Positions 1,282 to 12,585 of a stretch of 64,000 nt of DNA are shown here, in pieces. The DNA comes from Tropicimonas sp. IMCC34043 (lineage in GTDB: Bacteria; Pseudomonadota; Alphaproteobacteria; Rhodobacterales; Rhodobacteraceae): assembly GCF_003390845.1 (NCBI RefSeq), contig NZ_QMEK01000008.1, positions 1 through 64,000 on the forward strand. Direction: 5' to 3'. A program made the position numbers and the translations under genes. The notes beneath the pieces are model-generated. The model saw nothing but the letters and a program-made list of their open reading frames with translations, did no database searches and was not told where the DNA came from. The stretch's first letter is position 1. The number at the start of each line of letters is the position of its first letter.

Positions 1282-2308
1282 GCCCCGTTCCCCCCCCTGC
1301 CCCACCGAGGATATCCGAGTACCCCGGCCAGTCGGGCATACCTTCACCAGCTTTGTCGGCTCCAGAGCGCGCGACCGACAGGGATGGATCGATATAGGCT
1401 CGGCACTTGTCACGATACCCGTAGGTGTTCAGCAAGGGAGGCGTGCCGACATAGACCGTCCCGCCGATGTTGCGGCCGGCCACGCTAGCTGTTTCGCTAG
1501 ACGGGACCCACCCGCTTTTCGTTGATCGGGACGATACGCTCGATGCCATTCGCGAGAGCTGGTTTCGTTCAGCCGCCGCGGAAAGAGCTGGCGCTGCAGA
1601 CTTTCCGCGATCTCCGCTTTTCTTGCCACCAGACCAGAATGACAGGTACACCGAATGCAAAAAGCATCTGCCCGCCAACCCTGAAGCATTGTGGTCACCA
1701 CGACCATGCACAAGAAGAAATACAGGACGAGAAAGAATGTAATTCGGAAAAACTAGAGTATTGAGGACATTATCGGAACCCTCTCCGAACCACACTATTT
1801 TGGATACCCATCATTGCAACGACTAACGTCATTGTTGAAGCACTTCCCATGCTTTATGCTTGATTGGGCCGATGGCCACATACATCTGTTCACACCGTTG
1901 GGGGCACACCCCTGCCCCAGCGACCGTAACCGTAACGGCCGAGATGAAGCGTTGCCACGACCATGGGACGGTTGGTCGGGCTGGCTCCGGAGGAGACTGC
2001 CCGGTCAGCAGCACGTCGCAGTGAGAGGCGGCGTTTCAACTCGGGGAGGACGGCTGCACGCAGCCAACCGACTAGGGCTCGGTCCTGACCAAAGGGCAGG
2101 AGGGGCCAAGATCATCAAAACCTAAACTTTGCACATCACAAAAACCTAAACACCGCTCGAAACACCCCGCTTTCCACGACAAAGGTGGGATCGGTTTGAC
2201 AGCCGGTTTGACGTGTTTCGTTTTTGCTCAACATGAGTATGCAACGAGGCAAGAATCTGAACCTACTGACGATCACGAGGACGCCGACAGCAAACAGCGT
2301 GCCCCACC
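1282..2308. other. Gene-poor stretch with short direct repeats
   Basis: No convincing gene was found in this 1 kb. Reading frames on the minus strand between 1232 and 1795 contain a hydrophobic stretch (TFFLVLYFFLCMVVVTTM) that passes from frame to frame, and a small frame at 1829-2014 has one hydrophobic segment; these may be remnants of small membrane-protein genes, but I cannot name them. Towards the right are two copies of AAAACCTAAAC (2117-2127 and 2141-2151) and two copies of CGGTTTGAC (2192-2200 and 2204-2212). Base composition is lower in GC than the catabolic regions. The stretch marks the left border of the defence block. Confidence 0.4.
2117..2212. repeat. Paired short direct repeats
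   Basis: AAAACCTAAAC occurs at 2117-2127 and 2141-2151, 24 bases apart, and CGGTTTGAC occurs at 2192-2200 and 2204-2212, 12 bases apart. They lie in an AT-richer patch downstream of the AbiE genes. Spacing close to one or two helical turns could suit a protein-binding site, but two copies of each is too few to call iterons. Confidence 0.35.
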
Positions 2309-3339
2309 TCACTCAGGGCGCTTATTGGCCTGATCTTGAAGATCCATCAGACGAGCCATTAGGTCATCGAAAGCGATGGCGTCTGACTGAAGCAGCACCG
2401 CTTCCTGCATTTTCTGGTAATCTTGGGCCAGCGCCTCCAGGGCTTCACCCTCTGGGATCAGGGAAAGCGATCCTGAAACTGCGTCGGCATAGCTAATCGT
2501 TGCACCAGCACGATCGGTTTCGCGAAAAAAGTGCTGTTTGTGCTTCGCAACATCTTGTGCAAGCGTCTTATCCTCCAGCGCCCGCTCAGCGATACCCACA
2601 GCCTGCAGGCGATCAAGATCGTACCAGTGGCACGCGTAACGGTCGCCGCCCCGAAACGCGCCTCGCCGGCAATAGGCATGGATAGCTGTCGCCTTCTTCC
2701 AAAACGTCCTTTCGGCCATCATTACACGAGGCGTGGCGACGGGCATGAGCAACTCAGGTAGTGCCTGGGAGAGGTCACAAACCACTTCGTGACGCTGAGC
2801 CGGCTCTCCTGTGCACCTGGCACGAGCTCCAACAAGACCGAAGATCGAACATACCCGCTTCCGCTGCGCACCGCGTCGTAGTCCAGATAGATTTTGTCAC
2901 CTTCTACTTCTACACGGATTTCTGTTGGGAGCGCCGCTGCACTGACCTTGTCAGATAACATGGGGGCCACTTTTGACGCCACCCACTCGCCCAGGCGATC
3001 CCGAACGGCTTCGGTCCATTTCTGAGCTTGCGAGCGGCTTGGCGGATATGGATCTTCGGGATCCTTGATAAGATCGGGAATGATCCGCCTGATGTCATAT
3101 GTCAGGTCGACATCTTCTGAGAACCGGTCAATCGCCTTATAGACCTTGGAGAGCGACGTTCCTCCCTTGAAGACCATGTGTTCGCCAAGATCACTGTCGA
3201 ACAAGGCGTTAAGGACCCAAACGACCCAAATGTCTTTCTCTAACAGGTCCGCGGGCCGCCCCAGTTTCGAGGCAGCCACTTCCAGCGCGTCGATCTTGTC
3301 TTCGCGCGACAGCGAAAAATAGGTTTGGTTTTCTGTCAT
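2309..3339 (-). pseudogene. abiEii: AbiEii-type nucleotidyltransferase toxin, single-base frameshift
   Basis: The first part (3339 down to about 2823) encodes the nucleotidyltransferase core of the AbiEii toxin family, with FKGGTSLSK and FSEDVDLT, the conserved GxS and DxD-type motifs that bind NTP and metal. The second part (to 2309) carries the rest of the family, including ATPRVMMAERTFWKKATAIHAYC and HWYDL. The halves are in different frames. Restoring one G near 2823 (CTCGTGCC to CTCGGTGCC) gives a continuous LELGARCTGEPAQRHEVVCDL as expected for the family, so a one-base deletion is the simplest explanation. The start at 3339 overlaps the antitoxin stop by four bases. Intact members transfer nucleotides to tRNA and arrest growth. 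It is either a decayed toxin or a sequencing error. Confidence 0.8.
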
Positions 3340-3932
3340 TGCGATGACGCAAGCGCGCTAAGTTCCTTGGCCATCCAGGTCGGCGCACATGCGCGAAGGC
3401 TCAGAAGCTCGCGCTGCTCCTCTTCGTTCAACGTCGCTTTGATGCGCCTCAAAGCCTGAGCGACTTCGGACTTGCCGAAATAGGCGAGCGCCCGAAAGGC
3501 GTGCCCGGCACGGCTGTTGGGCGCACGAAGCTGCCAGCTCGGCACATGTTTAAGCTCGACGCTTTGCGCTCCGAGCTTCAGATGACGGCTCGGCCCGGAG
3601 GTCCAATAAATTTGACGGGATGGATTCTGCGTCGAAATGCCGAGCAGGTTCGCTGCCGACGCTCCGCTTTGCGATACGCGCTCACCTGTTGATTTCGCAA
3701 TGTGCTCGACCACGGCCTCAACCGAGGGCGCCCGGCTCCCGAAGCGGGTTTTCACGGGCTGCGCGAACAATCCCCGCTTCACACGCATAAGCTCCCCCCG
3801 CCGAACCAACCGCGACAACGCCTGGTCGACCGCAGCACGCTCTCCGAGATGCAACAACTCCCGTGCCGACAGGGTTGCACCCTCCGGCAGCGCTTCAGCA
3901 TAGGCCTTGATCGCTTGAGATGTGGTTTGCAT
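3336..3932 (-). CDS. abiEi: AbiEi-type antitoxin (DUF6088 family)
   Basis: The 198-residue protein matches the AbiEi/DUF6088 antitoxin layout: an N-terminal winged helix (ALPEGATLSARELLHLGERAAVDQALSRL region, residues about 15-60) followed by a C-terminal antitoxin domain. The start at 3932 is preceded by GGAGG at good spacing; a TTG four codons upstream overlaps that ribosome site and is less likely. It is first in a two-gene operon with the toxin, overlapping it by four bases. In the family, AbiEi represses its own promoter through inverted repeats and prevents toxin action. A matching inverted repeat lies at 3946-3973. The antitoxin is intact while the toxin is frameshifted. Confidence 0.85.
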   Translation of the reverse strand: MQTTSQAIKAYAEALPEGATLSARELLHLGERAAVDQALSRLVRRGELMRVKRGLFAQPVKTRFGSRAPSVEAVVEHIAKSTGERVSQSGASAANLLGISTQNPSRQIYWTSGPSRHLKLGAQSVELKHVPSWQLRAPNSRAGHAFRALAYFGKSEVAQALRRIKATLNEEEQRELLSLRACAPTWMAKELSALASSQ

Positions 3933-3945
3933 GTTCGCCTCCAAG

Positions 3946-3981
3946 TGTCAGATATGTAGCTTAGTTTCTGACAGTTTTCAA
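3946..3981 (-). promoter_or_regulatory. abiE promoter with overlapping inverted-repeat operator
   Basis: Reading the minus strand, TTGAAA (3981-3976), a 17-base spacer and TACATA (3958-3953) form a plausible sigma-70 promoter ending just before the abiEi ribosome site. A perfect 7-base inverted repeat, TGTCAGA (3946-3952) and TCTGACA (3967-3973), sits across the spacer and -10. AbiEi antitoxins are known to bind such repeats and autoregulate, so this is the likely operator. Confidence 0.55.
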
Positions 3982-4268
3982 GCTGAAGCTTCGCGGCTCA
4001 TGCTGGGCATGAAACAGATCACACCCTTAGGCCGCCGTCCCAAAAGTACCCAGTCAAAAGAGGAGATTCATGACGATGGGAATTCATGACCAATTGGGTT
4101 CACGCGGCCAGGCTCACATGGACCAGTCGACATAAGTTGCCCAAAACGGTCATTACTGAACTAGTTCTTGATTGCCACCACGGACCGCGAAGCAGACGGT
4201 ACTCGGTACGCGACAGAATTCCCTCCTTGGAACGGGAAATCCCCGGAAAATTTTTCGGACAACAATTT
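3974..4268. other. Spacer between abiE promoter and the Argonaute gene
   Basis: No gene of recognisable family is present. A well-placed AAAGAGGAG precedes ATG at 4070, but the frame runs only 21 codons before a stop and is not recognised. The plus-strand run CCGGAAAATTTTTCGG near 4250 is a weak hairpin just beyond the Argonaute stop and might help termination. Confidence 0.35.
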
Positions 4269-5744
4269 CTAGATGTACTTCCGATAGTCACTGCTCACTT
4301 TGTGACCGGCGGGCACATATTTCAAAACATCGCCAACCTTACGGGCTGCTCGGATCGGAATCGGCAAGCGTTGGTTCATCTGGGTCGAGTTCCAGTTCAC
4401 CTTCGTGAGGCTGAAAACTTCCTTCGCGATCTGTTCGATCGTGCTCTCGCTTTGCGGGTGCGGACAGAGCAACAGTGGATTCGGGACATAGAGGCCGGGA
4501 TAGGTCCCATAGTAGGGAATGCTGCCGTTGGTATAGAGCAGCCCATTTCCATCCAACTCAACGAAGGTGCCACGGAGGACAGGGAAGTCACCGTCGCGAA
4601 GCACCTTGACCGAATAACTTTCGTGAACCCAAACCAGATCGCGCAGCTCCACGCCTGCCTCGTCGAGCGCCTTGCCAACACCCTCGGCCTCATCTTCGCG
4701 AAAGCGCGACGTCTTCATGACGATCACGCGTGCCGGCATCGTTCTGTGGACCGACTTGTAGGCGGCTAGGGCGCTCTCGGTGAGCTTGTGAGCCTCATCG
4801 ATGGTGAGGAACGGATGGCAACCCCGTGACTCTGACTGCGCAGGACCACCTCTAAGAATGAACCCTCTGCCCCGTTCATCGAACATTTGTGCAGCGCTGG
4901 TCCATATCTCGTCGGTTTCGGCATCCTTGAAAAAGCTGACCCCAATGTAACAGGCGGTGAACTCACCTTCTTCCGGCAATCTGCGCCAGGGCGCCTTGCC
5001 GCTGCCCTTGTAGTAGAGCGTCGTCATTAGGTTCCATGCGAGGTCAGCTCGATCTTGAGTTTGGCGGTCAGAGTTCTCCTTGATCTTGCGAGGGATCTTG
5101 GCATCGGGGTCGATGACATCCTCCCAGACAATCTGAATTGAGAATCTCAGGTCCATCGCTCTGGCCTTGAGCAAGCCGCGGAAGTTTGGAGAGGTTTCCT
5201 TACCAGCTTTCGCCGCGGTCGCATCGTCCTCTATGACTTCGTTATTGCCCGCGCGTTCGTTCCTCCAGACTCGTTCGATCAGCTTGACAGGGAGCGAAAC
5301 CATGACCACGTCCGGCCGTTCATGATGCGCCTCCAACTTTTCCAGTTGCGCCATAACTGCGTCGACCGCCATTTCCACAGCACGCGCATCGCTTGGTTCC
5401 TTGGCAATCTTCTCGATCTGACCTTTCGTCAGCACACCGTCTTCGGCAGCTACCATTTCAAACCGGCACCGATAGGGGTTCTGGTTTCTCAACCCGGGAA
5501 AGTCCGGGTGCAGGTTCGGGTGCTTTTCGGTCTTCCCCTCGAACCCATCTTCGATCGCATCCAAAAACTCGCCTGATTTTTCGACGGTCAGAGCGCTGCC
5601 AACAACGCCGACTTTTATGGTGTCCCCCAGGTTCATTTGCAGTGGGCCCGCCTGCAGCAACCCCAATCGCGGATCAGGATGATGGTGCTGGTCGCCAAAT
5701 TCCAGTTCCGGCTCCGGGAAGATCTTTGTTTTGAAGTCGCTCAT
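4269..5744 (-). CDS. Short prokaryotic Argonaute (MID-PIWI) of a SPARDA-type system
   Basis: At 491 residues the protein has the size of a short prokaryotic Argonaute, which contains only MID and PIWI domains and lacks the N and PAZ domains. The C-terminal half reads as a PIWI-type alpha/beta domain, with [11 protein letters not shown], a following beta-rich block, [11 protein letters not shown] and the terminal [22 protein letters not shown] see no clear DEDX catalytic tetrad, as expected for short pAgos, whose slicer activity is lost. In this class the protein binds a guide RNA and base-pairs with invading DNA, then activates its partner effector. Here the partner is the gene immediately upstream (ATGA overlap at 5741-5744), a DUF4365-APAZ protein, giving the SPARDA arrangement. 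Family assignment is from length, domain feel and partner; the MID residues that hold the guide end were not assigned. Confidence 0.85.
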
Positions 5745-7075
5745 AGGTCGAAGCTGCCTTGTTCATTCGAGCCGGACGGCTTCCTCGACCTCTGCGCCTT
5801 CGCGCCCCACACATCCTCGGGCACGCTCTTTGGCAGTTCGATGGAAGGCGGGACGCCAAACTTGATGATGCGATCCGTCTTGGTGTCGGGTGCCAGCAGT
5901 TCGCCGGCATCTTCAAATTCCATACCCGACAGCAATCGATGCCACATGATCACCTGGCCTCGAACTGTACTGTTTGTGTCGAGGCGCTTCTTCCCGGACA
6001 ACAAGGCATCCGGATAGTTGAGCGCGCGTTCTCCATCCGAAGTGAAGTAGTAGGATGGGTTGACGATCAGGTACCATTGATCCGCCAAGCGCTCGAACCG
6101 GGGATGGAATGAATGGTGCCGTACATAGTCGATGGGCCCCTCCCCCTTCGACTTCTGATAGACGCTGACAACATCGGCCTGTGTCTTCTGCTTCGCACCA
6201 AGATAGCGAAACTTGCGCGCCACGACTCCAGGTGCTGGCAAGAAGTAGAACTGTTTTTTCTTTCGGTCCCATCCAAGCAAATCTCGAAAGTCATGGCCCA
6301 GAGTATGTCGCAACAGACCCGCAAATTTGTATTGCTGATCCACTGCGTCGTGTTGTGCCAGAAAGTCGGTTTCGATCCGTTCAACCTGATCCCGTTCGAC
6401 CAGGTCGCGAACGGGTGTGGTTAGTGGGTCGCAGAATGTCCAAAGCGAGGTTTCATCGATCATCCAATCGTACCGCCGGCCTTCCCGGACCTTATTCATC
6501 CGGGCGAGCGCCTTCTGGGTGGAGAGCTGGGTCTGTGCGACGAAGATCTCCTCTGGAAGTTGCAGAGGCACCATGTTGATGATCGCTTCCTCCCCTCCCC
6601 CAAGTGGCGGGACGTAGTAACCGTGTCCTTGCTTGGCGACGGTCAGTGCAGCGAGGCGATCCTTCGCACGTCCGTCCAAAACGTCACGCTCTTTGTCGAA
6701 CTGCAATGTGCGTTCGGCCTCGCCAACGAGGTTTTCGAACGACTTCCAGAAGAACGTGTCATCTGATTGCCTGTAAAGAACGAGAATTACGGGCAGGTTG
6801 GAGCCACGCCAGTAGTCGAAATCTGAAGCGCGGACACGATAGGTGAAACCGGCGTCCGTCTCGCCGACGTAGCTGCCACGCTCAGTAGCCTTAACCTGAA
6901 CGGCAATCATCTTCGCTGTCGGCTGATCATCGTCCATCACCTCAGCGATGCCGTCTATCCCTGCTTCCAGCCGAGAACGCCCATCGAATTGGAACCCAAT
7001 TCGCAAGAATTGAAGATTAGCCGCCTTCTCCCCGATTTCGCCAATTCGCTGACTGGCAGTAATCTTCTTGTTCAC
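5741..7075 (-). CDS. DREN (DUF4365 nuclease)-APAZ effector of a SPARDA-type system
   Basis: The 444-residue protein begins with a DUF4365-type nuclease domain: IGEIGEKAA at residues 11-19, then the PD-(D/E)xK core with Asp41 in AGIDG and Gln60-Val-Lys62 in [11 protein letters not shown]. The rest, from about residue 170 onward, fits an APAZ domain, the Argonaute-binding module that replaces the N-PAZ half of long Argonautes. In SPARDA systems guide-directed target-DNA recognition by the pAgo releases this nuclease for indiscriminate DNA and RNA cleavage, killing or arresting invaded cells. The start is GTG at 7075, with a weak ribosome site; no ATG lies nearer the conserved N-terminus. The gene overlaps the Argonaute gene by four bases and codon usage is less GC-biased than in the catabolic genes, suggesting transfer. 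Confidence 0.85.
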
Positions 7076-7138
7076 GCCAATAACCCGTACCTTCCATATG
7101 ACAGAGATAGCACTTCAATCAGCGTTTCGTAAGGCCTC

Positions 7139-7157
7139 GGCCTACTACATGTAGGCC
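7139..7157. promoter_or_regulatory. Inverted repeat upstream of the SPARDA operon
   Basis: GGCCTAC and GTAGGCC form a perfect 7-base inverted repeat separated by TACAT, about 65 bases upstream of the effector start. It may be an operator for the defence operon or a hairpin terminator for scpB reading the other way; no T-run follows it. Confidence 0.35.
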
Positions 7158-7356
7158 ATTTAGGCGACCCTTGGATTGACCGGTCAAGAGGTCTATCAAG
7201 CTTTCCCGACCAGATTTCACCACGACTGACGTTGTCGTCACGATGGTATTCGTTGCTGCCGACGATGATATCCCGGGGTAGCATCCGCGAGAGCAAAGTT
7301 GGGATGATTTCTATGCCAAGGATACCAATTCGTCAGCCGCCGCCGACTTGAAGCGG

Positions 7357-7947
7357 CTACTCCACAACCCCCGCATCCTCCAACTGCTCGCGATCGGGAA
7401 GATCGCGCAGGCTCTCCAAGCCAAACGCGACAAGGAACTGCTCGGTTATCACGAAGGTATAGGGCGCCCCTCGCCGAGGGGATCTTGTCCCGGTCCCGAT
7501 CAGGTCGCGCGCATGCAGTCGACCGATCAGTTCACGGCTGATCTCCTTGCCGAAGATATCCTTGAGCCCATCGCGGGTTATCGGCTGGTGACAGGCGATA
7601 GCGGCCAGCACCGCGACGTCGAATTCACTCAAGTCCAGCAGTTGGTCGCCGACATCTGCCGCCGCGCGGATCGCGGGGGCGTAGGCGGGTCGCGTCCGGA
7701 ACATCCAGCCGCCAGCGACCTGGGCGGTCTCGAAGGCCCGCCCGTCCAGATCGGCGGCAAGGTCCTCGACCAGTAGATCGACCGAGGCCCCCTGTCCCAC
7801 CACGCGGGCGAGGTCTTCGCGCGGGACCGGCGAGGCAGAGGCGAAGAGGACTGCCTCGATCCGGTGCATCCATTCCCGCCAGCGCAGCTCAGGCGGCAGG
7901 TCGGGCAGCTCGCGATCCAGTTCGGGGTCAGAGCGATCCTTCGCCAT
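7357..7947 (-). CDS. scpB: SMC-Scp complex subunit ScpB homologue
   Basis: The 196-residue protein shows the ScpB tandem winged-helix pattern: MHRIEAVLFASASPVPREDLARVVG at the first winged helix, a beta wing ending in GGWMFRTR, then LSEFDVAVLAAIACHQPITRDGLKDIFG and LIGTGTRSPRRGAPYTFVIT in the second. ScpB with ScpA forms the kleisin sub-complex that loads SMC for chromosome compaction and segregation. The start at 7947 lies two bases after the stop of the DUF1403-like pseudogene (TAG at 7952-7950). No scpA or smc is near, so it may serve replicon segregation with host SMC or act separately. Its position after repC resembles the backbone of other Rhodobacterales plasmids as I remember them. 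Confidence 0.85.
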   Translation of the reverse strand: MAKDRSDPELDRELPDLPPELRWREWMHRIEAVLFASASPVPREDLARVVGQGASVDLLVEDLAADLDGRAFETAQVAGGWMFRTRPAYAPAIRAAADVGDQLLDLSEFDVAVLAAIACHQPITRDGLKDIFGKEISRELIGRLHARDLIGTGTRSPRRGAPYTFVITEQFLVAFGLESLRDLPDREQLEDAGVVE

Positions 7948-7949
7948 GG

Positions 7950-8786
7950 CTACACCCCATAGAGCCGGAAAGTGTCGCGCCCGGTCAGCTCGCGCACCGC
8001 GCCGAGGTCGACCAGCCGGTCGCAGAGCCGCCGCGCGGCGCGATCCGGCAGCGGCAGCGCCGAGGGAGCAATAGCATCGCGGGTCAGGAACATCTCGACT
8101 GCGCCGCCCGACGCGCGAGATCGACGGCCTGCTGCACGGCCTCAACCGCCGAAGAGATGAGCGCCCGATGACAGGCAAGGCGCTGGTCATCCCCCTGCTT
8201 GCGTAGGTCAGCGCGCTTCAGTCCTGCGGCCAGCAGCGGCACGAGATGATCCCAACCGAGTGCCTGAGCGAGGGCGGCGTCCGCGAAGATCAGCGCTGCT
8301 TCGTCTGCACGTGGCGCCTCGCACAGAACGGCTGCCAGCGCCATCGCGGCACGGGTCACGGACGCCCCTTTCCCCACATCGAGCCACGCGGCAATCTGGC
8401 CAGGCTCGAGGGTCGGCAAAGCCCGACCCAGAGCCTTGATCGACACCGGTCGCTCCACCGCACGCCGCCAGGCAAGGCAGGTTTCACCGGCCGGTCCGGG
8501 TAGATCGCCGGGACGCAGAAGATGTACCGTGTCGCGCAATTCCCCTGCCCGCTCCGGGCGCCCCGAGAACGCCATGCAAGCCTCGGCCGCGCGCAGCGCG
8601 AGCCGGTCCCGCAACAAGGCTTGGGGCACTTCCTCGTGTCCCAACACAAGATGCAGGTGGCTCAGCGCCGCCCCCGACAAAAAACGCAACATCTTCAAGG
8701 GTTTCAGCGCGTGAAGAGGTGACCCAGGCGGGCATCCGGGGTAACGTGTCGAGGTCGCTTATGTGATCCGGTCGGGCAAAAGTCAT
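7950..8786 (-). pseudogene. DUF1403-family gene with two frameshifts
   Basis: Three consecutive frames together spell one protein. The N-terminus is read from 8786 (MTFARPDHISDLDTLPRMP... ETLEDVAF), the middle from about 8680 in the next frame (FLSGAALSHLHLVLGHEEVP... AVDLARRAA, stop at 8084), and the C-terminus in a third frame (AVEMFLTRDAIAPSALPLPD... DTFRLYGV) ending with TAG at 7952-7950. The first shift falls in a run of six T (minus strand, around 8680): five would keep frame. The second, near 8105, appears to include a small deletion before VEMFL. DUF1403 proteins are of unknown function and, from memory, accompany scpB and repC on Rhodobacterales plasmids. Two independent lesions favour real decay over sequencing error. 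Confidence 0.7.
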
Positions 8787-9094
8787 GCCCAGAGCCTACA
8801 CCAGCGCGGCGCTTTCGTCCACGTTATGATGTGCAAACCGCCCTACGCTGCGCCTCTCAGTCATGTCCAATAATCTTGCCTTATCGGATATGATCCTGAC
8901 CCCCCGGAAAGATCGCATTTCGCGGCCGATCCCACCGCCCAAGGCCGTCAAACCGGTCGATGACGCGCGCCGGCACTTGCCCGATACGGCGCCCGATCTC
9001 GCCCGGGGTGACGCCACAGACGCGATCCGGCAGCATCCCGAAGGCAAGGCATGGCGGCCCTGTGCATCGACCGACGACATCGCGTGTACAGCCG
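8787..9094. other. Spacer between repC and the DUF1403 pseudogene
   Basis: No confident gene. On the minus strand, one frame around 9000-8940 reads TPGEIGRRIGQVPARVIDRF and the neighbouring frame around 8900-8796 reads ISDKARLLDMTERRSVGRF, which together might be a decayed small DNA-binding protein gene, but I do not recognise it and found no ribosome site. Confidence 0.3.
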
Positions 9095-10243
9095 TCATCG
9101 CGACAACCCGCAGGCATGATACGGTCTCGGGGCGAGGCGGGAGCGAATCAACTGGCCGAGCTCAAGCTCCCCCCTGCCCCATCGGTCGACCAGACGGCGC
9201 AGATACCCGCCGGGATTTGCGATTTCGGCGCCACGCTCCAGAACATAGCCGAGCAGCAATGCGGCATTTGCCGTGCCCATCGAAGCGACCGCGTGTTTCC
9301 AGGACTCGAGGCTGTTCGGCAGCAGCCTCGCCGTATTGTCGAGAGCGTCGCTGATCTCACGCGGTCCCCTGCTCTGTGCAAGTATCGCGGTCAGTGTCGG
9401 AAACGCCCGGGTGATGTCCTGTTCGGTGACGGTGGTGTTTTTCTCTTTCGCGGCGGCTTCATCAACGGGAGTATTCGGAGTCTGATCTATGTGTCGCTCG
9501 GATTGAGCAACAGCGTCGCTCACTCCGGCCGTTGCAACGGGCTGTGCCTCGGAGGTTGTCCACCGCGCGAGGACGGAACGGATCTGGACCAGCATGTCGG
9601 TCAGCCGGTCAATCGTCGGGGTGCGGCGCAAACGCCGGGCGAAATCGGTGACAGCGGCGGCCAGGTCCTCCAGCCGAAGCGTCCGTGGATCGAGGCGCTG
9701 CATCAGCCGCCGCAACCGCGCCAGTTCGTCGGCACAGTCGAGCCGCAGCGCCTCGATCCGCGCGGCGTCGGCGGCGACCTCGGCCGCGATCTGTTGCAGA
9801 CGCCCGCGGCCCGCGACCAGAGGGCCGATGTCGATGCCATAGCTGCGCAGCACCGTCCCGTCCCCCCCTACCCTTCTGAAGCGTTTGCGGTTCGGCGACA
9901 TGACGCGCTGCACCAGCCCGCAGGCCTCGGCACGGCGGATGCAGCGGTTGACCGTGCTGTCGCCCGACAGGCCCATGCGGCGGGCAATCGCGGCGTTGCC
10001 GGCAAAGACGACAAGCCGGCCGTCCCGGTCGAGCGTCAGGTAGTCGCCGTCGACGAAACTGACCAGAACCTCGAGGAAATGCAGGTCGGTCCCGTTCAAC
10101 GACAGCCGCCCGGCGCAGCGCTTGAGCGGTGCGATGAGGTCACGCCATTTGTGCGGTGCGGTGGCCATGACCGCTCCGTTGCCGGGTGCGACAGGCACAC
10201 CTCGACCGGCCCGCGCGACGGCGGGATCTGAAACATGGATCAT
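9095..10243 (-). CDS. repC: Plasmid replication initiator RepC
   Basis: This is the third gene of a repABC operon. RepC proteins bind within their own coding sequence, where the origin of replication lies, and set replication initiation. The recognisable N-terminal half includes KWRDLIAPLKRCAGRLSL, then VVFAGNAAIARRMGLSG and the helix-turn-helix STVNRCIRRAEACGLVQRVMSPNRKR, which follows the RepC pattern of VFPSNxxL and SPNxKR. The C-terminal half has the lower-complexity linker and a conserved tail (GGYLRRLVDRWGRGELELGQLI). I chose ATG 10243 because it gives an N-terminus of usual size; the frame also allows ATG 10285 or a shorter start. The gap to repB carries the predicted antisense RNA. 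Length, 382 residues, is normal. Confidence 0.9.
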   Translation of the reverse strand: MIHVSDPAVARAGRGVPVAPGNGAVMATAPHKWRDLIAPLKRCAGRLSLNGTDLHFLEVLVSFVDGDYLTLDRDGRLVVFAGNAAIARRMGLSGDSTVNRCIRRAEACGLVQRVMSPNRKRFRRVGGDGTVLRSYGIDIGPLVAGRGRLQQIAAEVAADAARIEALRLDCADELARLRRLMQRLDPRTLRLEDLAAAVTDFARRLRRTPTIDRLTDMLVQIRSVLARWTTSEAQPVATAGVSDAVAQSERHIDQTPNTPVDEAAAKEKNTTVTEQDITRAFPTLTAILAQSRGPREISDALDNTARLLPNSLESWKHAVASMGTANAALLLGYVLERGAEIANPGGYLRRLVDRWGRGELELGQLIRSRLAPRPYHACGLSR

Positions 10244-10302
10244 TTCGGTATCACGAGACCCCGTGACCGGGCACAAAACCACCATTCGCCGAATCGGCGT
10301 TA

Positions 10303-10384
10303 TTGACTTCTCGATGTCCGAAGGCCATTCTCAGGGTGCAAACAGAGATTGGGGCGTCCGGGTCGGTGATCTGGCGCCTCTTTT
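10303..10384 (+). ncRNA. Predicted counter-transcribed RNA of the repB-repC spacer
   Basis: RepABC plasmids carry a small antisense RNA (incompatibility determinant) between repB and repC, transcribed against the operon. Here the plus strand shows TTGACT (10303-10308), a 17-base spacer and CATTCT (10326-10331), then a hairpin GGGGCG (10351-10356) with CGCCTC (10375-10380) followed by TTTT (10381-10384). That would give a transcript of about 45-50 bases from near 10338, the right size and place. The range given covers promoter to terminator. The -10 match is weak, so the exact start is uncertain. Confidence 0.55.
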
Positions 10385-10423
10385 CGTTAGGGCCTTTGTG
10401 CCTCCTTCATTTGCTGCTCATCC

Positions 10424-11389
10424 TCAAGTCTCCGCGCCGCCTTCTGCCTTGAAACGGTCGTGAAGTTCGTCGATCAGGCGCTCGGCGTTGTCGCTGACCC
10501 AGCGGTCGAAACCGCTGTCGCTGCGCCTGATGGTAATCGTCGTGGCCCTGGCGCTGTCCTTGATCGCAGCACCATGTTTCAGCTCGCGCGCGGGCAATGC
10601 CGCGCCCAGCCGGTCCTTCGGCCCCCGCCGCGTCGCCTCGGCATAAAGCGCAAGGAAGCGTTCGTCGGAGGTTGCATCGGGGCGCTTGCGGGCAAATCCC
10701 TCGAGGATGGACACCGCGCGGCCCTCGGTAAGGCGTTGGTCGGCGAACAGCTTCAACAGCGCCTGCCAGCGGTCCCGGCCGATGCCCACGGCCGCCCCGA
10801 TCAGGTTCCCTGCCCTTTCGGGAATGCCGTTCGCGATCTTCAGATACTCGCTGACATGGCTTTTGCCGACGTTCAGCGCCGCCTGGATCGTGGTGCGGTC
10901 ATAGCCCGCCGCCTCGATCGCCTTGGCGAACCGGCAGCGTTCATAGAACGACAGATCCTTGCGGGCGCTGTTTTCCTGCCCCTGCGCGATCACGCATTCC
11001 TGGTCGTCGAGGTTGCGCACATTGGCCTTAACCGCGATGCCAAGCTCGGCGCAGGCCTGCAGCCGCCGCCTGCCATAGACGATCTGGAACCGGTTGCGGT
11101 CATTCGGGCTTGGCCGCACCAGAACCGGCACAAGCTGGCCATAGCGTTCGATATTGGCGCGCAGTTCGTCATCGCCGACGGTCACGGTCTCGATCCGGTC
11201 GAGCGGACCGTTCAGGTCGATCCGGCCCGGGTCGATCTCCTGAATGCTGCTTGCCGTCATCTCCTGCAGGCCGGCGGCCAGCGCGCCGACGGCACCGGCC
11301 GGCAGGCTGCTGCGCGGCTTCTTCGGGCGATCCGCGTTCCCGGCCGTGGCATTCTGAAGACTGTCGAGAAGGTTGCTGTTTCTGGCCAT
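10424..11389 (-). CDS. repB: Plasmid partition protein RepB (ParB family)
   Basis: The 321-residue protein has the ParB/Srx N-terminal domain (IQEIDPGRIDLNGPLDRI, then ELRANIERYGQLVPVLVRP and FQIVYGRRRLQAC) and a KorB-type helix-turn-helix (RTTIQAALNVGKSHVSEYLKIANGIP, split over residues about 160-190). RepB binds parS palindromes, loads onto the replicon and stimulates RepA ATPase, ensuring segregation and helping repress the operon. ATG at 11389 overlaps the repA stop as TAATG and is preceded by GGGGACGG; an in-frame TTG at 11401 falls upstream of that ribosome site and is rejected. The matching parS-type sites are at 12817 and 12867. Confidence 0.92.
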   Translation of the reverse strand: MARNSNLLDSLQNATAGNADRPKKPRSSLPAGAVGALAAGLQEMTASSIQEIDPGRIDLNGPLDRIETVTVGDDELRANIERYGQLVPVLVRPSPNDRNRFQIVYGRRRLQACAELGIAVKANVRNLDDQECVIAQGQENSARKDLSFYERCRFAKAIEAAGYDRTTIQAALNVGKSHVSEYLKIANGIPERAGNLIGAAVGIGRDRWQALLKLFADQRLTEGRAVSILEGFARKRPDATSDERFLALYAEATRRGPKDRLGAALPARELKHGAAIKDSARATTITIRRSDSGFDRWVSDNAERLIDELHDRFKAEGGAET

Positions 11390-12585
11390 TACCGTCCCCA
11401 AGCCCTGTGCATCAGTTTTTCGACCTCGGCGCCGACGGCGTTCATGCTTTCCAGCGCCCGGTCATAGGTTTGCCGGTGGATGTCGGCGCGCGGCACCTCA
11501 TAAAGCGACTGCCGGAAGGTCGTCGCGTCCGAGATCGCGGTCGATTTCAGCGCCGTCGAGACCAGCACATCCTCGCCGAACAGGTTGCGCAGGAAGGCGA
11601 CCATCTGCTGCTGCGGCCCGTCCGAGGGTTCGTGCCGCGCGATCAGGTATTTCAGGAAGTCATAGCGCATGGTCACGCCCTGCTGGTCGATCACCTCCAG
11701 CAACTCGCCGGTCATGCGCAGGAACTGCGCCGTCGACGACACGTCGAGCATCGAGGGCACGATCGGTACCAGAATCCCGGTCGAGGCGACAGCACCCGCG
11801 ATGGTCAGAAAGCCAAGCTGCGGCGGGCTGTCGATCAGCACCACGTCGTAATCGTCCGCGACATCGCTGATCGCCACCGACAGCCGCTTGAAGAACGGGA
11901 CCTCGCGGCGGCTGGTATCGCGCAGCACCGCCGCGGTCTCGTGTTCGAAGGTCTGCAGTTGCAGCTCGGCCGGGACTAGATCGATGTTCTGGAAATAGGT
12001 CGGATGGGCGCAGTCGCGGATCGACACCGGATCGTCGTACTTGATCGCGTCATAGGCGGTGAACATGTCGTCGAGATCGAGCGTCGGACGGATCCCGAAC
12101 ATCGTGGTCAGGCTGCCCTGCGGGTCGAGGTCGATCGCGAGCACCCGATAGGAATGCAGCGCAAGGTAGTGCGCCAGATGCAGCGTCGTGCTGGTCTTGG
12201 CCGAGCCGCCCTTGAAGTTCATCAGCTGCAGCACCTGCAGCGCCTCGCCCTCCTGCCGGCCGCGCAGATAGCTGCCCTTCTTCTTGGCGGTCTTTTCCAG
12301 GATCTCGCGGATCTGCTGGATCGCCTGTGCCGAATAGAACCGGCGCCCGCCGCTGGCGGTATGGACGTCGGGAATACGGCCCTCGGCATGAAGGTTGCGC
12401 AGGAATTGCGGCGTCACGTCGAGCAGGTCGGCGACCTCTCCGGCCTGAAACAGCCGCAAGTCCTTTCTTGCATCCGGTGCGAAGGTACGCATCTGATGCA
12501 CGTTGAGCGCATCGGCCAACCGGTCGGCCATGTCGAGCACGGCGGAGGAGGCCGTGGGATCTTCGATGGGGGGCATGTCTTTCAT
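11389..12585 (-). CDS. repA: Plasmid partition ATPase RepA (ParA family)
   Basis: The 398-residue protein has an N-terminal MerR-like DNA-binding region (FQAGEVADLLDVTPQFLRNLHAEGRI, residues about 45-72) and a ParA ATPase domain with deviant Walker A KGGSAKTST, Walker A' DLDPQGSL and Walker B VVLIDSPPQLG. RepA moves plasmid copies with RepB and represses repABC transcription through its N-terminal domain. It is the first gene of the operon, followed by repB with a one-base overlap. Start at 12585 gives the family N-terminus. A TTGACT on the minus strand near 12670 may be part of its promoter, but no good -10 was seen. Confidence 0.92.
   Translation of the reverse strand: MKDMPPIEDPTASSAVLDMADRLADALNVHQMRTFAPDARKDLRLFQAGEVADLLDVTPQFLRNLHAEGRIPDVHTASGGRRFYSAQAIQQIREILEKTAKKKGSYLRGRQEGEALQVLQLMNFKGGSAKTSTTLHLAHYLALHSYRVLAIDLDPQGSLTTMFGIRPTLDLDDMFTAYDAIKYDDPVSIRDCAHPTYFQNIDLVPAELQLQTFEHETAAVLRDTSRREVPFFKRLSVAISDVADDYDVVLIDSPPQLGFLTIAGAVASTGILVPIVPSMLDVSSTAQFLRMTGELLEVIDQQGVTMRYDFLKYLIARHEPSDGPQQQMVAFLRNLFGEDVLVSTALKSTAISDATTFRQSLYEVPRADIHRQTYDRALESMNAVGAEVEKLMHRAWGR

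Follow-up and report, generated by a model that had tools for sequence, protein, structure and literature searches.

A predicted SPARDA defence operon among plasmid-backbone genes, exchanged between two positions in a Rhodobacterales clade

Introduction

SPARDA systems pair a short prokaryotic Argonaute (pAgo) with a nuclease subunit, DREN-APAZ. Short pAgos are described as lacking the PIWI catalytic tetrad (PMC12205087). NbaSPARDA acts in a heterologous host against plasmid transformation (PMC12205087, abstract and section 7) and is also active against phage T5 (PMC12205087, section 7). In its nuclease subunit, activity and defence are both lost with D41A, and collateral activity is lost with Q60A and impaired with K62A (PMC12205087). 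The sensor loop of NbaAgo, residues 280-307, is required for filament formation (PMC12205087, section 7). The related TmuRE-Ago is RNA-guided and carries out DNA-activated, non-specific DNA cutting (PMC10810196). It prefers guides with a 5'-OH and a 5'-U (PMC10810196).

The biochemistry of SPARDA is already known; the question raised here is which mobile elements own such systems, and who benefits. The locus described here lies in a 64,000-nucleotide stretch of Tropicimonas sp. IMCC34043, referred to as the window. The operon is very probably a SPARDA, a guide-RNA-triggered collateral nuclease defence, which sits among plasmid-backbone genes and is exchanged between two places in its clade.

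Identity of the operon

The operon comprises two genes, and parts of the nuclease subunit are listed with them.

4269..5744, minus strand: short pAgo (MID-PIWI), 491 aa, ATG start; predicted RNA-guide and DNA-target binding subunit
5741..7075, minus strand: DREN(DUF4365)-APAZ nuclease subunit, 444 aa, GTG start; 4-bp overlap with the pAgo gene
6647..7039, minus strand: DUF4365/DREN PD-(D/E)XK nuclease domain with D41, Q60 and K62 (Pfam)
5795..6592, minus strand: APAZ-containing part, residues ~162-427 (PADLOC PDLC02399 and solved-subunit match)

The genes lie on the same strand and share bases 5741-5744, an operon-like arrangement, and each is present in one copy in the genome. Pfam places DUF4365 at residues 13-143 of DREN-APAZ (E 3.9e-24). 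PADLOC assigns this protein to Aga_REase-PNTD1-PNTD2 (E 5.6e-162) over residues 1-436, thus including the APAZ part, and the pAgo to pAgo_I (E 1.3e-165); the Pfam Piwi model matches the pAgo weakly (E 0.27). In phmmer searches, the top solved relatives of both subunits belong to NbaSPARDA: the pAgo is matched end to end (E 4.8e-215) and DREN-APAZ is matched by 9jsb_D (E 3.5e-141), with the Xanthobacter and Enhydrobacter SPARDA next. A chance match is excluded because these E-values against solved SPARDA subunits are below 1e-140. Up to E 1, Pfam finds only DUF4365 in the DREN-APAZ partner and no TIR or SIR2 NADase domain, the mark of SPARTA and SPARSA.

The pAgo structure, predicted from the window protein and 16 relatives (mean pLDDT 79.4), resembles SPARDA pAgos with TM up to 0.92 (9vx1_A). 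An earlier, sequence-only reading had described a SPARDA-type pair, with a DUF4365 (DREN) nuclease carrying Asp41 and Gln60-x-Lys62 fused to APAZ and a 491-residue short pAgo overlapping it by four bases. The open reading frames and the Pfam, PADLOC and phmmer matches bear this description out. The profile and fold check proposed with it gives a positive result for the pAgo by PADLOC profile and predicted structure, DREN-APAZ being compared by sequence only. As far as sequence and predicted fold allow, the operon is settled as SPARDA.

Replicon and neighbourhood

The contig is 137,964 bp long and repeats its first 127 bases at its other end, as an assembled circle does; it is therefore probably a circular plasmid of ~137.8 kb. 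The genes around the operon are as follows.

9095..10285, minus strand: repC (Pfam RP-C)
10424..11401, minus strand: repB (Pfam RepB)
11389..12585, minus strand: repA (Pfam ParA-type AAA_31 and MerR)
7953..8786, minus strand: DUF1403 gene, recovered as three matching pieces, with two changes of frame relative to the copy of locus L003
7363..7947, minus strand: ScpB-like gene (SMC_ScpB, Pfam), 89% identical to L003 ScpB
7076..7159, minus strand: 84-nt leader of the operon, common to L004 and to L009/L029, whose ScpB allele differs
3336..3944, minus strand: AbiEi-like antitoxin (DUF6088), 3' of SPARDA, at the HipB/HipA place of other rep-slot copies (see below)
2309..3339, minus strand: AbiEii-like toxin gene, split over the overlapping frames 2722-3339 and 2309-2785 and broken in the sequence as it stands

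The distance of 2.0 kb between the 3' end of repC (9095) and the start of DREN-APAZ (7075) agrees with the earlier placement of the operon about 2 kb from repABC. The DUF1403 gene is probably a pseudogene, provided the reads are right. An AbiE-type toxin-antitoxin pair (2309-3944) adjoins the window SPARDA. GC content is 0.56-0.58 in 2001-8000 and 0.61-0.71 in the remaining window. Among 20 other window ORFs scanned, 9 have a Pfam match at 1e-5, to transporters, binding proteins, and sugar or aldehyde metabolism. A second RepC of the same genome is on contig C14.

A search of the genome for two conjugation families, relaxase PF03432 and the coupling protein T4SS-DNA_transf PF02534, gave no match, and neither Rfam (gathering threshold) nor a tRNA scan detected anything in the window. 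The viral-contig scan found no phage carriage with the single window DREN-APAZ protein as query, which reaches close relatives only.

Close relatives in two backbone slots

A pAgo relative at E <= 1e-20 is present in 19 of 390 genomes sampled from the order, and 5 of the 390 have a copy of at least 95% identity. A wider genome-contig scan used the best 80 of 522 relatives, together with three plasmid records and the window. Full-length pAgos of at least 95% identity occur in this set at 20 loci in 19 genomes.

These 20 close copies fall into two slots. Directly downstream of DUF1403-ScpB lie 12 copies (the rep slot), and RepC is near 11 of them: it is in the locus in 10, and in L004 repABC lies across the record start. 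The contig of the twelfth, L063, begins inside the module. A HipB-like gene then follows in 11 of the 12 loci and HipA as well in 10; L004 has an IS6 gene there, and the window has AbiE genes in place of HipB/HipA. The other 8 copies are directly downstream of TraG, before GajA/GajB and T4SS genes (the tra slot). PADLOC confirms Gabija for the proteins tested (GajB of L055; GajA and GajB of L057). In two tra-slot loci, GajA is in two overlapping pieces and is probably frame-shifted (L055, 11543-13529; L061, 11543-13530). Pseudoprimorskyibacter insulae carries near-identical SPARDA operons in both slots (L059, L068), on separate contigs. Incomplete copies L005 and L006 are in the tra slot, and two others are in neither (L069 has no marker; L071 has only a RepB-type match).

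RepA proteins of the rep slot range from ~26% to 100% identity to L003 RepA, and the pAgos are 95-97% identical to that of the window. RepA thus varies widely while pAgo is near-constant, which suggests that the cassette stayed in the backbone across replicon changes.

Distant SPARDA loci number 72, 49 of at least 15 kb and 23 shorter. RepC occurs in 2 and TraG in 3 of the 49 longer loci, and RepC in 1 of the 23 shorter ones. A general habit of SPARDA to adjoin RepC is rejected on these counts. The difference between 10/20 close and 2/49 distant loci (Fisher p 2.6e-5) overstates independence because the close copies are related by descent. One distant SPARDA, L054 of Haematobacter (8709-11446, 37% pAgo identity), lies between T4SS and TraG genes, so this slot has been used on more than one occasion. 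The location of L054 is a possible plasmid defence hotspot.

By sequence comparison, the new element is that close SPARDA copies share two plasmid-backbone slots and recombine between them. At the level of titles and abstract openings, the literature search found no report of the two-slot pattern and no paper joining prokaryotic Argonaute and repABC.

Exchange between the slots

On a tree built from the operons of the 20 copies, 3 changes of slot label are required, each of them forced by starred branches. With shuffled labels the average is 6.3, and 5 (rep) or 2 (tra) among 500 shuffles reach so low a count. The slots are thus clustered on the tree, yet not separate. The rep-slot copy L056 is placed inside the tra-slot group, and the tra-slot copy L060 clusters with the window.

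Comparison of six tra-slot copies (all but L002 and L060) with 6 of the 12 rep-slot copies yields only 11 slot-separating sites, none of them beyond nt 489 of the 2,807. At 10 of the 11 sites L056 resembles the rep-slot copies; in the remaining sequence it is nearer the tra-slot copies. L060 follows the tra pattern at the first 6 sites and the rep pattern at the remaining 5. Judged from these sequences, alleles are exchanged by homologous recombination between rep-slot and tra-slot copies. A precise mobile unit was considered, as rep and tra copies are homologous in DNA only from the GTG start to just past the stop; the tree and the sites in the first 489 nt fit allelic recombination better.

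Upstream, one leader type is common to rep-slot copies, reduced in L068 to roughly its final 16 nt as judged by eye, and the tra-slot leader differs. Direct comparisons of rep and tra leaders (L005 included) are not significant, with z from -1.0 to 1.3. L069 has a leader with a clear resemblance to that of the tra slot (z 6.2-8.7) and a weak one to that of the rep slot (z 1.7-3.0).

Conservation of functional residues

D41, Q60 and K62 are invariant in 11/11 aligned DREN-APAZ proteins, and all three catalytic residues of the window protein match NbaSPARDA. All 14 mapped guide-contact residues are identical to NbaAgo, so an RNA guide with a 5'-AU preference is predicted for the window pAgo. The 7 PIWI-PIWI filament contacts are likewise identical. 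Weighing against this, other contacts vary: 5 of 7 MID-MID and MID-PIWI contacts differ from NbaAgo (Q134E, E97V, G140H, R295P, R244K; R142 and D480 are kept), as do 3 of 8 non-catalytic DREN contact positions from NbaSPARDA (N8, N17, R20; five kept). One of three Ago-Ago dimer positions is kept relative to NbaAgo (R301), and E268 and S174 differ.

When the window is paired with relatives in 13 comparisons, dN/dS lies at 0.062-0.111 in DREN-APAZ and at 0.043-0.093 in the pAgo; these low values indicate that the operon is kept under purifying selection. Both reading frames are open in 19 of the 20 close copies found among the best 80 of 522 relatives, the plasmid records and the window; the exception is L002, with a stop within DREN. 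This stop and the partial remnants L005 and L006 show that kin can lose function. In L005 the pAgo is gone and IS66 genes adjoin; in L006 the DREN is cut short and the pAgo absent. In L050, IS5 genes lie within DREN-APAZ and also within the stretch that matches the pAgo.

The window pAgo has Cys at position 309, which corresponds to R303 of NbaAgo in the sensor loop. An allele weakened or dead through R309C is improbable. In favour of it, the residue is Arg in 11 of 12 rows of alignment A2, in 14 of 17 rows of A3 and in 15 other close copies aligned, as well as in L003 and L004 (alignment A2), with L002 and L063 outside the comparison. The need of NbaAgo filaments for this loop points the same way. 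Against a damaged allele, two other A3 rows have K or N at this position, the main text of PMC12205087 makes no mention of R303, and the window operon has both frames open with low dN/dS.

Proposed mechanism and role

The pAgo and DREN-APAZ would form a heterodimer that loads a short guide RNA, probably with a 5'-AU like the guides of NbaSPARDA. Once this guide pairs with DNA of an invader, such as a phage or an incoming plasmid, a pAgo filament would form, which would gather the DREN domains into tetramers. The tetramers would then cut nucleic acids non-specifically, and the cell would be killed or stalled. Guide-dependent activation, collateral cutting and abortive defence are attributed to the window operon by analogy with its close homologues. 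In the clade, the operon adjoins either the replication or the conjugation module of a plasmid backbone, with recombination swapping alleles between both.

The sequence-only reading had also suggested a role against competing plasmids. Its positional argument holds in so far as the location recurs (12/20 behind DUF1403-ScpB); it is weakened by the 8/20 copies in a conjugation module, by shared descent and by the tolerance of co-resident repABC plasmids. All 5 genomes with close SPARDA among the 390 carry 2-5 RepC genes (PF11800); the 390 genomes average 0.86. The comparison of counts (Mann-Whitney p 0.0003; p 0.012 for five of five with two or more, when drawn from 190 RepC genomes) is confounded, with 5 genomes, because a plasmid-borne system needs plasmids. 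The 2-5 RepC genes in every host indicate that SPARDA does not exclude resident repABC plasmids. An anti-rival-plasmid role of the window operon is plausible by analogy with NbaSPARDA and from the recurrence of the backbone position.

That the operon is ordinary anti-phage cargo on plasmids, its repABC adjacency inherited and uninformative on plasmid rivalry, has a little under an even chance. The close copies are one recent family, and the clustering of slot labels on the tree implies that neighbours are largely shared by descent; the several RepC genes retained by all five hosts and the activity of NbaSPARDA against T5 fit as well. Placement of all 20 close copies in two different backbone slots speaks against mere cargo, as does the spread of RepA beside a near-constant pAgo. 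The same backbone placement favours plasmid-plasmid conflict or persistence, in which SPARDA aborts cells receiving a rival replicon or plasmid loss is punished. Companion genes that are toxin-antitoxin-like (HipBA, AbiE) or Gabija, and the opposition of NbaSPARDA to plasmid transformation, lend this some support. It is nonetheless rather doubtful, given that hosts commonly hold co-resident repABC plasmids and that P. insulae has one SPARDA copy per slot on separate contigs.

A broader and still less likely proposal is that SPARDA in this Rhodobacterales clade is no cargo but a standing backbone part with two fixed slots, behind repABC-DUF1403-ScpB and between relaxase/TraG and T4SS genes, homogenised by inter-slot recombination so that co-resident plasmids share one DNA alarm. 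If true, the shared alarm would let carrier plasmids coexist while cells entered by guide-recognised phages or plasmids abort. The clade offers a natural testable set, with near-identical operons in two slots, a genome that has them in both, decayed sister copies and a natural variant of the sensor loop. It makes testable whether a plasmid-borne Argonaute defends the cell or the plasmid, and the recombining two-slot pattern is the part worth following.

Comparison with known systems

NbaSPARDA of Novosphingopyxis baekryungensis (9jsb, 9jsp, 9jsz, 9jt2) is homologous to the window system over the full length of both subunits. Its chains of 485 and 442 aa are similar in size to the window's 491 and 444 aa, and the catalytic, guide-pocket and PIWI-PIWI residues are the same. 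It differs in having 60-61% pAgo identity to the window, several other MID interface and DREN tetramer residues, and R303 where the window has Cys. The SPARDA of Xanthobacter autotrophicus and Enhydrobacter aerosaccus (9qbl, 9qbq, 9qcc, 9qbp) share the architecture and pAgo fold but have 46-49% pAgo identity to the window. TmuRE-Ago of Thermocrispum (PMC10810196) likewise combines DUF4365-APAZ with a short pAgo, a likeness drawn from domain pairing.
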